A stretch of DNA of 64,000 nucleotides. Origin: Mariniphaga sp. GTDB taxonomy: Bacteria; Bacteroidota; Bacteroidia; Bacteroidales; Prolixibacteraceae. The stretch's first letter is position 1. Each line of letters starts with the position of its first letter. The stretch is from assembly GCA_024636975.1 (NCBI GenBank), contig JAGXGA010000033.1, positions 1-64,000 of the forward strand. Direction: 5' to 3'. The translations under genes and the position numbers were made by a program. Below, one piece after another: positions 3,593 to 51,687 of the stretch. The notes under the pieces were generated by a model. It was not told the DNA's origin, searched no databases, and saw nothing but the letters and a program-made list of their open reading frames with translations.

Positions 3593-3847
3593 GTTCCGGG
3601 TTCAAAGTTTAAAGTTTAAAGTGAGGCTGCCCATAATGGGCGATGGAATCCCGATCGGAGCAGGCCCGGGTGGCGCGGTTTTTTACCACGCATTCAGGCA
3701 AAGTGCAGAGAGTTCGAGGTTCAGAGTTCAGAGTTTAGAGTTTAAAGTTCCGGGTTTCAAGTTTAATGTGGGGGTGCCGGCTAGTAGGCTTCGGAACCTT
3801 GTTTTGAAGCAGGAACCCGGGTGGCGCGGTTTTCTACCGCGCATTCA
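3593..3847 (+). repeat. Two composite repeats: heptamer array plus hairpin unit
   Basis: Two copies of one composite lie head to tail inside the hisG-hisD spacer. Each begins with degenerate heptamers of the GTTTAAA/GTTCAGA type: four units at 3593-3620 and eight at 3712-3767. A related 76-80 bp unit follows (3621-3696 and 3768-3847), sharing the core CCCGGGTGGCGCGG and ending ACGCATTCA or GCGCATTCA. The second unit folds GCGCGG (3824-3829) onto CCGCGC (3837-3842) perfectly; the first has one mismatch in the same stem. Upstream of the first array, 3550-3586 holds imperfect GGGCAAAG-type repeats. No gene is visible in the spacer. Confidence 0.75.
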
Positions 3848-5570: not shown

Positions 5571-5582
5571 ATAAGTATGAAC

Positions 5583-5665
5583 ATCACCTTAACTTGGTTC
5601 AGGACATCACCCTGAACTTGTTTCAGGGTCTGCTGAACAGATGCTGAAACAAGTTCAGCATGACA
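5583..5665 (+). repeat. REP-like palindromes, inverted pair
   Basis: Three related units follow the GIY-YIG remnant: a degenerate one (CCTTAACTTGGTTCAGG, from 5587), a direct one (CCTGAACTTGTTTCAGG, 5611-5627), and an inverted one (5641-5661, ATGCTGAA and TTCAGCAT around ACAAG). The last two face each other, so they can fold singly or pair with each other, like a REPIN. The inverted unit supplies the spurious upstream ATG at 5641 that would extend HisC. Confidence 0.85.
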
Positions 5666-29592: not shown

Positions 29593-29628
29593 GAACCATT
29601 CCTTGCTGAGGGAATGGTTCTTTTGTTT
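29593..29628 (+). terminator. Intrinsic terminator
   Basis: GAACCATTCC and GGAATGGTTC form a perfect 10-bp stem with an 8-base loop, followed by TTTTGTTT, 48 bases after the stop of the secreted protein gene. Confidence 0.9.
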
Positions 29629-29790
29629 GCAACTGACTTCTGATAAAGGTTTCAAGAGTATTCGCTGTTGCACCGTTTTCATGAAACCTGGAATACCAAA
29701 ATTAAATTTCCGGTTATATCCTTACCTGAAGTTATAGAAACAGTATTAACCAAAACCCTTTTTCCTCTCCATACATGGAAGTTACCTTCG

Positions 29791-29909
29791 CCTGACTAAA
29801 CTCAATGTTAACTCAATATAAACTCAATATTAATTCAGTGTAAATTCAATTATAATTGAATTTACATTGAGTTTATACTGAAATTATACTGAGTTTATAC
29901 TGGACCAGG
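29791..29909. repeat. 11-bp-unit palindromic element, copy 1
   Basis: This 119-bp AT-rich element begins CCTGACTAAACTC and ends near CCAGG. The left half is a run of 11-mers of the form AACTCAATnnn (starting at 29799, 29810, 29821, 29832, 29843). The right half is a run of inverted 11-mers (nnnTTGAnTTTA, TGAGTTTATAC types). The centre TGTAAATTCAATTA / TAATTGAATTTACA (29839-29866) is a perfect 28-bp palindrome. The left arm matches copy 2 (51430) at 55 of 58 positions; the right arm is more diverged. The rest of the gap (29629-29790 and 29910-30123) shows no gene or other feature. Confidence 0.9.
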
Positions 29910-30123
29910 TACTGAGAATTTATAGCTTATTAATTCCCGGCCAATTATTTTGAATGTGGTGTGGATTGCATATAAAGCATGGGTATAAATTCCACATAAT
30001 TAATAGCTGAACAGGGTAATACGAAAATATATTTATTGTTTCGTGGCCTAAAAGCGTGAGTGAATCAAAGGCATGTTTTTTGAAAAATAACTGATTCGTA
30101 TCAATAAACGATGAAACAATATT

Positions 30124-30597: not shown

Positions 30598-32043
30598 ATG
30601 AAAACGATACTATATTTCAAATATTTTATTTTACTGGCAGGAATTTTCCTTTTCGATGCATGCAAAGATGATGATTTTGAAGCACCAAGTGGTGTAAAAA
30701 TCACCTTCCAGGCTACATCTTTGCTTAAAAGTACTGCCAATACCATATTACTTGAAGAGGCTTATATAGGGATAGGAAACATTGATTTGAAACGTGTGGG
30801 AGAAAACGATTCCGCAGCCATCGAAAAAATAGTTTACGACGGACCATATGTCGCTGATCTGTTAAATGGTACAATTTCTCCTGCCATTAGATGGATATTT
30901 GCAGAACCGGGTTCTTACAGGGAAATTGAAATAAAAACGCATAAAGCCCTTACAGGAGGAATGACCATTATTTTAAGAGGTACGATAATGCCTTCTGATG
31001 GTTCAGGTGAAATTCCATTTGAATTAATAACAGCCAGGGAGTATACATTAAATATTGAAAACAATACCGGTATTGAAGTCAGAGAAGGTGAAAATGTTGA
31101 TCTTCTGGTTGTATTTGATTTGTCGGATTTATTTAAGGGAATTGATGTCAGTTCGTTAGATAAAAATGAAAACGGAATCCTTGTTATTTCCGAAGAGGCT
31201 GCTTCTAATACGGTCGCCCTGCTAATTGATAAGTTTAACACGTTCAGCAGCTTTGGCATCAATGATGGCCTGTTTCCGGGTAACACTGCAGATGAAAACC
31301 CGGATAATGAAGCTCCGGAAGGAGATGAGGATACCGGTGAAGAAGCTGACGGCGATACCAGTGATGGTGAGTCCGGTGATAATCCGGATGGTGATAATTC
31401 GGGAGATGGAGATACAGGTGGAACTGATGAATCAGGAGATGAAGATGAAGGTGGCACTGATGAATCCGGAGACAACCCAGATGATGGAGAAGATGAAAAT
31501 GACCCGGGTGCTGGATCGGAAGATTCAGGAAGCAGTGGAGATGGAACAAATGAAGATGATGAGAAGGATGAAAATTCCGGGGAAGCCGGTAGTGGAGATG
31601 GACCCGCCGGTAATGGCGACAGCCCTGTAGACGGAACCGGAGACACTCCGGGGAATGGAAATGATGGCAATTCAGGAAATGAGGATGAAGAAGGCCCTGG
31701 AGATGAAGCTGGTGATGAAGGTTCGGACAATGAACCGGGAGACGCGGAGGGTGATGATGATTCCCCGAATGATGGCAGTAATGAAGGTGATAGTGATGAT
31801 CAGGGAGAAAATGATGAAGGTACCGGGAATGATGAAGGGGAAAATGACGAAGGTACCGGGAATGATGAAGGAGGAAATGATGAGGAAAGTGGGGATGATG
31901 ATGGAGACGATGATGAGGACAACAGGGATGATGATGGAGATAATGATGACGACGACGACGATGATGACGACGATAAAAAAAAAGATAAAGGCAACTCAGG
32001 GAAGGGCAACAATGGAAACTCAGGCGGAGGAAAAAAGAAATAG
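30598..32043 (+). CDS. Lipoprotein with long acidic low-complexity tail
   Basis: A 481-residue envelope protein. A lipoprotein-like signal ends at FLFDAC (about residue 22; the lipobox is imperfect). Residues about 30-225 form a beta-rich domain (VKITFQATSLLKST, EIEIKTHKALTGGMTIILRG) resembling, but not confidently matching, the DUF4382 type. From about residue 226 to 455 the chain is almost only D, E, G, S, N and T, with repeats such as GENDEGTGND twice, and ends DDDDDDDDDDKKKDKGNSGKG. The acidic tract is encoded by GAT/GAA/GGA-rich DNA and may vary in length. It could bind calcium or act as a surface spacer. An outer-membrane barrel gene follows. Confidence 0.8.
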   Translation: MKTILYFKYFILLAGIFLFDACKDDDFEAPSGVKITFQATSLLKSTANTILLEEAYIGIGNIDLKRVGENDSAAIEKIVYDGPYVADLLNGTISPAIRWIFAEPGSYREIEIKTHKALTGGMTIILRGTIMPSDGSGEIPFELITAREYTLNIENNTGIEVREGENVDLLVVFDLSDLFKGIDVSSLDKNENGILVISEEAASNTVALLIDKFNTFSSFGINDGLFPGNTADENPDNEAPEGDEDTGEEADGDTSDGESGDNPDGDNSGDGDTGGTDESGDEDEGGTDESGDNPDDGEDENDPGAGSEDSGSSGDGTNEDDEKDENSGEAGSGDGPAGNGDSPVDGTGDTPGNGNDGNSGNEDEEGPGDEAGDEGSDNEPGDAEGDDDSPNDGSNEGDSDDQGENDEGTGNDEGENDEGTGNDEGGNDEESGDDDGDDDEDNRDDDGDNDDDDDDDDDDKKKDKGNSGKGNNGNSGGGKKK

Positions 32044-51294: not shown

Positions 51295-51429
51295 TAGTAA
51301 CCAGTTGATTGGCATACATGAAAAATTCTGATTATAATTAGCTGTTTATTGCCATTCTTGAGGCAGCTTATCTTAAACACCTGTAAGAGTTTATTTATAT
51401 GTTCTCCCGATGCTTTGTACCTACCAAAG

Positions 51430-51553
51430 CCTGACTAAACTCAATGTTAACTCAATACAAACTCAATATTAACTCAATGTAAATTCAATTTTAACTGAAT
51501 TTACATTGAGTTAATATTGAATTTACAATGACTCAACACTGAGTTTAATCAGG
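51430..51553. repeat. 11-bp-unit palindromic element, copy 2
   Basis: This 124-bp element pairs with itself as two 58-base arms around an 8-base loop ATTTTAAC (51488-51495). It has the same CCTGACTAAACTC beginning and ends GAGTTTAATCAGG. The innermost 25 bases of each arm are exact reverse complements (51463-51487 against 51496-51520); over the whole 58-base arms, 50 positions pair. It is built of 11-mers such as AACTCAATGTT and TTGAGTTAATA. It lies 136 bases after the DUF4251 terminator; copy 1 lies 163 bases after another terminator. The rest of the gap, to 51687, shows nothing else. Confidence 0.92.
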
Positions 51554-51687
51554 AATTAACCAGTACTTAAACGGATGTAGCAGGAGCCATTATATAATTT
51601 ATTTCGCAACTTTTGAAAAAATGAATATATTCCACGCAACCTTTGGTGAATTCTGATCATCTATAGGAAAAATGTAATTTAATTAAA

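Follow-up and report, generated by a model that had tools for sequence, protein, structure and literature searches.

Inverted arrays of 11-bp units dispersed through a Mariniphaga genome as putative docking sites for a chromosomal protein

A hairpin built of short tandem units, found at positions 51,430-51,553 of a 64,000-nucleotide stretch of Mariniphaga DNA (the window) and again at 29,791-29,909, leads to the question as to what such an element is. The original prediction, made from the letters of the window, left three options: a MITE-like mobile element, an array of protein-binding sites on one face of the DNA, or a long structured RNA. A recount of the two copies agreed with its description of the arms: the left arms are identical at 55 of 58 positions, and in copy 2 the arms pair at 50 of 58 positions, with a longest perfect run of 25 and an eight-base loop (ATTTTAAC). 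Both copies are real, but they are longer than claimed, extending over 29779-29921 and 51418-51565 according to a covariance model (R1). The arms are indeed runs of 11-mers, although a single unit, AAYTCARTNNN, makes up both arms rather than two different forms. A two-unit pattern allowing up to two mismatches matched the window 11 times, always inside the two copies, where 0.05 matches were expected. The window genes that were scanned look like those of an ordinary chromosome (histidine biosynthesis, PheT, hydrolases and a two-component pair). The features of the two copies are as follows.

51418..51565, + strand: copy 2, whole element (covariance model R1; five-unit right arm)
51423..51431, + strand: copy 2, left end motif ACCAAAGCC (family consensus ACCTTCTCC)
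51436..51490, + strand: copy 2, left arm, five 11-bp units of the AAYTCARTNNN type
51464..51519, no strand: copy 2, central palindromic core (on average the most conserved stretch of the family)
51493..51547, + strand: copy 2, right arm, five inverted 11-bp units
29779..29921, + strand: copy 1, whole element (covariance model R1; four-unit right arm)
29784..29792, + strand: copy 1, left end motif ACCTTCGCC
29797..29851, + strand: copy 1, left arm, five 11-bp units
29825..29880, no strand: copy 1, central palindromic core
29854..29897, + strand: copy 1, right arm, four 11-bp units
29902..29910, + strand: copy 1, right end motif GGACCAGGT (reverse complement ACCTGGTCC)

Elsewhere in the window, an inverted repeat with CCCTGAACTTGTTTCAGGG and GCTGAAACAAGTTCAGC lies between the genes for histidinol dehydrogenase and an aminotransferase (5581-5663) and seems to be a further palindromic repeat of the dispersed type; a repeat resembling it, CCCGAACTTGTTTCGGG, is also present in the unrelated locus L374. 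The window further contains a short tandem repeat of AGAGTTC-like heptamers (3700-3766) and encodes a predicted protein of 481 amino acids (30598-32043), the C-terminal half of which is a very acidic Asp/Glu/Gly/Asn-rich repeat and which has no Pfam match at E 0.01.

The element had been called dispersed with two copies in view, and dispersed it is, with about seventy copies genome-wide rather than two. Across the genome (5.76 Mb, 67 contigs), a three-unit pattern matched 133 times in forward and 124 times in reverse orientation, and its reversed control not once. The 66 copies analysed here comprise the two of the window and 64 picked among the matches listed, and the 45 copies with a five-unit right arm were used to build the covariance model. 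This model recovered 71 places in the genome, namely the 66 copies (the overlap being judged by eye), one further strong copy (C51:18243-18390, 115 bits), which stands outside the statistics on the 66, and four weak places of 39-56 bits on C20, C38, C12 and C34. Partial copies are rare, a single strong place of the 71 being matched in part. Weak copies may be missed, since the model scored the best 150 of 4,695 first-look candidates in this genome, 150 per genome within the genus and seven per genome across the order.

Each array of ~145 bases consists of directional 11-bp units centred head-to-head on a 28-bp palindrome that is strongly conserved; the end motifs of the array are of the ACCnnnnCC type. 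When 56 copies were oriented by an iterative fit, the family consensus read ATACCTTCTCCtGACTAAACTCAATGTAAACTCAATATAAACTCAATATTAACTCAATGTAAATTCAATTA, followed by TAATTGAATTTACATTGAGTTAATACTGAGTTAACACTGAGTTaAtAtTGAaTTTAgTAaGGagaAgGTat. In the 28 columns at the centre, 52 or more of these 56 copies share the same letter at 25 positions, and 44, 47 and 50 copies do so at the remaining three. In nine of the ten units, at least 54 of the 56 copies retain each letter of the TCA core, which reads TGA on the right; the exception is the outermost right unit, where core conservation is lower, some right arms being shorter. The unit positions Y, R and NNN vary, and Y and R mix strong and weak pairs. Conservation is graded along the element, with means across the 66 copies of 0.92 for the centre (-28 to +27), 0.88 for the left outer part, 0.70 for the right outer part and 0.36 for the flanks.

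The two ends, which the original prediction took for terminal inverted repeats, differ in this respect. The ACCT of the left end is kept in 53-54 of 56 copies, nearly as well as the centre, while the right end is degenerate apart from its GG (63 and 61 of 66 copies) and has no sharp edge of conservation. The left arm holds five units and, as aligned, has the same length in all 66 copies. The right arm, whose ends were located by best motif score, has five units in 46 copies, four in 17 and three in 3, and the steps are always 11 bp. The register is strict: 45 five-unit copies align without gaps over 148 columns, and the GC and A/T periods lie at 10.85-11.0 bp. Fixed core letters with free spacers, repeated at many loci, are what is expected of a chromosomal protein-binding site.

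A hairpin of this size may also be read as a long structured RNA, be it a UTR hairpin, a small RNA or a terminator. Indeed, both window copies have a very stable predicted fold, with minimum free energies of -53.5 and -39.6 kcal/mol (z -13.7 and -7.9, from 200 shuffles each). Conserved pairing would show in the agreement between the arms of individual copies, and this agreement is uneven. In a test of the 56 copies run without orientation, the arms at u3, u4 and u5 agreed less than under random pairing (z -4.0, -5.3 and -2.8), and those at u2 agreed more (z +3.2). With orientation and unit number included, u3 and u4 fell below re-paired arms (z -4.4 and -4.9), u2 stood above them (z +3.5), and u1 and u5 were neutral. 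For the whole structure, 77.6% of cells are paired versus 78.3% in shuffles, 493 of 500 shuffles being at least as high. The score for compensatory covariation equalled that of shuffles in this test, only u2 pairs exceeding re-paired arms, and pair types are slightly more numerous (80 versus 75.4 in shuffles; 37/500). Since pairing at u3 and u4 falls short of that in re-paired arms, hairpin pairing is not the feature that is conserved. Both arms retain the core letters, and mismatches are favoured at the free positions of u3 and u4; this tendency may reflect avoidance of a long perfect palindrome or, alternatively, a design with two unlike arms. An Rfam scan of the window gave no family at gathering score, and the 12 sub-threshold matches of copy 2 were all to microRNA families.

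The position of the copies relative to genes bears on the same point. Called genes cover none of the 66 copies, of which 17 lie between divergent genes, 15 between convergent genes and 31 in tandem contexts, with three unclear. Orientation is not fixed in the tandem contexts, 16 of the 31 copies running with transcription and 15 against it. Single context assignments may be wrong, as the simple, home-made gene caller overlooked some genes, including the DUF4251 gene that precedes copy 2. The seemingly random orientation and gene context suggest a role at the level of DNA that is independent of transcription. Together with the shuffle-level covariation score, the mismatch tendency of u3 and u4 and the Rfam result, they led us to reject the RNA hairpin, which we regard as highly improbable in spite of the stable folds and the pairing at u2.

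Both copies had furthermore been placed downstream of a terminator that follows a gene for a secreted DUF protein. Terminator-like stems do end at 29620 and 51285, which is 170 and 144 bases before the copies as first described, and the preceding genes match DUF3244 and DUF4251. No such family is common to the neighbours of the other copies: the 236 flanking proteins form only small clusters, the largest of six, and the link to terminator and DUF gene looks coincidental. Local GC skew was likewise discarded as a correlate of copy orientation (p 0.63).

Among the 66 copies there are 36 same-contig gaps, the shortest of which is 18,376 bp. Uniform placement with the same numbers per contig leaves 10.5 gaps shorter than 18 kb on average, and all 20,000 random draws contained such gaps. 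When four of the further model matches are added (the fifth is alone on its contig, and so does not enter the count), there are 40 gaps with the same shortest distance and a median of 39 kb; the corresponding null has a mean of 12.1 gaps below 18 kb and never fewer than 2. Chromosomal spacing is therefore non-random in this 67-contig assembly, as expected of protein sites. For a neutral repeat such a minimum distance would be difficult to account for; it is compatible with a chromosome-scale role or with transposition immunity.

Among the three original options, the best fit is an array of sites bound by protein along one face of the DNA, in view of the 11-bp register, the near-invariant TCA cores, the independence of transcription and the minimum spacing. 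We propose that each copy is a putative double-stranded DNA docking site for a protein that would assemble or wrap along the helically phased units. This reading fits somewhat better than a mobile element or an RNA hairpin, and we put its probability at slightly less than one half. The protein would touch the same DNA face once per helical turn (11 bp), nucleating at the central palindrome and then extending outwards over both arms, more strictly so on the left; strict register, fixed cores, freer spacers and indifference to transcription fit contacts of this kind. Selection would keep the copies in place. As they lie between genes and at least 18 kb apart, a chromosome-scale, architectural role is likely, perhaps that of a nucleoid-folding, topological-domain, supercoiling or segregation site. 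DNA gyrase and a DNA-wrapping nucleoid protein are candidate binders.

Transposition immunity, which occurs in Tn7, Mu and Tn3, opens another route to the same spacing. The main rival to the docking site is a MITE-like element that would depend on a transposase supplied in trans and binding the 11-bp repeats near both ends, with immunity keeping copies at least 18 kb apart. MITEs and foldback elements have inverted repeats and occur in many copies, and those of the foldback type consist of tandem short units. High copy number in one genome with absence from three others of the genus, random orientation, and apparently defined inverted ends of which the left is well conserved all suit such an element. 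Some common ancestry among the copies suits it also. Pairwise identities (median 81%) are spread more widely than in column-permuted data (sd 0.044 versus 0.030), and columns are associated strongly within 5 bp (r2 0.076 versus 0.015 permuted) and weakly over long range (mean r2 ~0.020 versus 0.015). The identity spread and the weak long-range association suggest that a single source gave rise to the copies, which have diverged since their spread.

Other observations weigh against such an element. Target-site duplications, which the original prediction had singled out as a check, did not exceed chance at the 66 copies, either as exact matches (k 3-9) or as identity (k 4, 5, 6, 8 and 9). The best of 9,963 identity offset tests reached z 3.6, and the best exact case comprised 3 copies at k 5 and one offset, where 0.07 were expected, among thousands of offsets. 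This weighs little against a MITE, since old copies would have lost such duplications. There are no recent twins or near-identical pairs among the 66 copies, the best pair being 94% identical, a maximum within the column-permuted range. Cores are fixed while free positions are randomised, partial copies are nearly absent, and neither a split element with separated arms nor any parent element was found among the matches listed. In same-genus pieces, no syntenic flanks of the window copies were found, most matched stretches being ~64-76% identical.

Y1_Tnp, the sole transposase family searched, occurs at seven places in the genome, none of which adjoins any of the 66 copies, and the fetched flanks are devoid of 11-mer units; the link to a Y1 transposase or RAYT was dropped on these grounds. 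In this genome (G000), Y1_Tnp matches of nearly full length, IS200-like or RAYT-like and unlinked to the arrays, were noted at five loci, on C5, C18, C41, C57 and C58 (L350-L354). Plasmid and phage records gave no match to the array, and an origin from such replicons was set aside, the three viral contigs that a further search returned being two near-identical minisatellites and one unrelated array. The MITE option of the original prediction is consequently weakened, and in its classical form it is left weak by the lack of target duplications and recent twins. It carries more weight than these results suggest, because the left end is conserved nearly like the centre and because missing duplications are uninformative for old copies. 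We consider the version with immunity unlikely, but a serious contender.

A covariance-model search of related genomes had also been suggested at the outset. Ninety-nine other genomes, of which three belong to the genus itself, gave no match to the exact pattern, and the model, scoring 150 candidates per genome, found no copy in any of these three. A hairpin detector that recovered all 66 own copies returned two short stems and nothing comparable from 790 kb of same-genus genomes. In an order-wide sample, searched with stricter filters and the best seven candidates per genome, 7 of 392 other genomes gave weak matches of 33-41 bits; for two of them, contig number and coordinates coincide with those in genomes G100 and G105. 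Six of eight slices inspected contained repeats or hairpins, and two (L338 and L343) were without an array. A scan of the collection returned at least 73 loci, many of them simple minisatellites and some of them related arrays, with at least 22 genomes in the follow-up pattern list.

Related arrays came from a genome of the Prolixibacteraceae (G110), in which at least 18 contigs matched, with a best model score of 106 bits. Its arrays have AANTCAATACN as outer units and inner units of the GGGTACATTAC, AGGTAGATAAT or AATTCGTAGAT type. Nine of 11 loci inspected in this genome pair at 60-79 of 90 positions, as compared to 38-45 in 16 control pieces; of the other two, L374 is another repeat and L202 consists partly of N. 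For G100 and G105 six loci were compared: one lacks an array and the other five pair at 47-63 of 90, a range whose lower end hardly exceeds the control values. In the three genomes together, the left arm matches itself at lag 11 with values of 0.49-0.73 in 14 of 17 loci, while lags 8-10 and 12-14 give only 0.14-0.40; L374 and L380 have no lag-11 peak, and the value of L202 is inflated by N. The arms in G105 have common cores such as TTCAATAG with differing spacers. Hence, pairing and lag-11 peaks indicate that the inverted 11-bp plan recurs in other Bacteroidota genomes with other unit sequences. Orthologous placement in G110 rested on three protein matches of 33-74% identity and gave no convincing case.

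Simple 11-mer minisatellites occur in many genomes, and the right arm varies by whole units, as would be the case if slippage and hairpin-templated synthesis had turned such minisatellites into inverted, functionless repeats. One plan at 66 loci, near-fixed cores, a constant left arm and a minimum spacing are unexpected from independent slippage, and we consider this neutral origin improbable. Long 11-bp minisatellites of the GGTAATTCAAT type, several hundred bases in length, were observed in Bacteroidota MAG sequence (L069, and contigs C63 and C103 of genome G107). Further MAG repeats (L335, L337, L012 and L016) mix GTCATTC-type 11-mers with GCGAAGCGAATGAC-type units and are alike between genomes.

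The dimensions of the array recall those of strong DNA gyrase sites, at which the arms would wrap the two GyrA C-terminal domains and the palindrome would be the gate segment, the copies serving as spaced supercoiling sites in the manner of BIME-2 or the Mu strong gyrase site. The E. coli gyrase motif is described as having a 36-bp centre and two 47-bp arms, 130 bp in all, with a GC period of 10.75 bp (PMC6379681). The array likewise has a centre and two periodic arms over ~140 bp, and its period of close to 11 bp resembles that of this motif and of the Mu site (130-140 bp; PMC6379681). Retention of the period with different sequences in other genomes, and the minimum spacing, are also consistent with gyrase. 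However, the E. coli motif is depicted there as degenerate, present at thousands of sites and presumably recognised by way of DNA shape (PMC6379681), whereas the array is strict in sequence, with TCA near-fixed and Y and R mixing strong and weak pairs, numbers about 70 copies and is absent from three same-genus genomes. Gyrase sites proper thus appear quite unlikely. Predicted curvature is strong compared to shuffles in all 66 copies but modest compared to unit-permuted controls, with 58 of 66 below the control mean; as ~20% of within-unit permutations are equally curved, it is largely a product of the periodicity.

REP and BIME sequences, and REPINs with their RAYT, are like the array in being dispersed, palindromic, intergenic, present in many copies and often species-specific, and in E. 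coli gyrase prefers BIMEs (PMC6379681). REPs are portrayed as 20-40 bp long and mostly GTAG- or CGTC-tagged (PMC3733652). The array differs in its ~145 bp of 11-bp units, in its 18-kb minimum spacing and in lacking a Y1 transposase alongside; its consensus is not a tagged palindrome of REP length, and a RAYT association is missing at the 66 copies. A Bacteroidetes subclass of Y1 proteins is reported to have genes flanked by atypical structures with copies elsewhere (PMC6006769). Structures of this kind resembling the array were not found at the Y1_Tnp flanks fetched from this genome.

In terms of numbers and spread, the docking site has better-known counterparts. Noc, SlmA and MatP each have tens of specific sites over a chromosome, and the bound protein acts on the nucleoid or on division. 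Their sites are short single palindromes, unlike the present array with up to ten units in inverted arrangement. Absence from three same-genus genomes is odd for a core chromosome function and counts against the docking site. This absence, a left end like that of a mobile element, the ability of immunity to explain the spacing and the fact that we infer binding from sequence features keep our confidence just under one half.

A wider form of the proposal is possible, although we hold it as tentative: several Bacteroidota lineages may carry architectural head-to-head 11-bp arrays on a palindrome, tens of kb apart and with lineage-specific units, to which a lineage-specific protein would bind with one subunit per helical turn and so fold or partition the nucleoid. 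Such arrays were not found described in the literature searched, most subscription papers lying outside its scope. If the docking-site reading holds, some seventy alike and spaced sites would offer a direct handle on the organisation of this chromosome. Should transposition immunity be the cause of the spacing, the copies would amount to a clear trace, across a whole genome, of how that process acts on a non-autonomous element.
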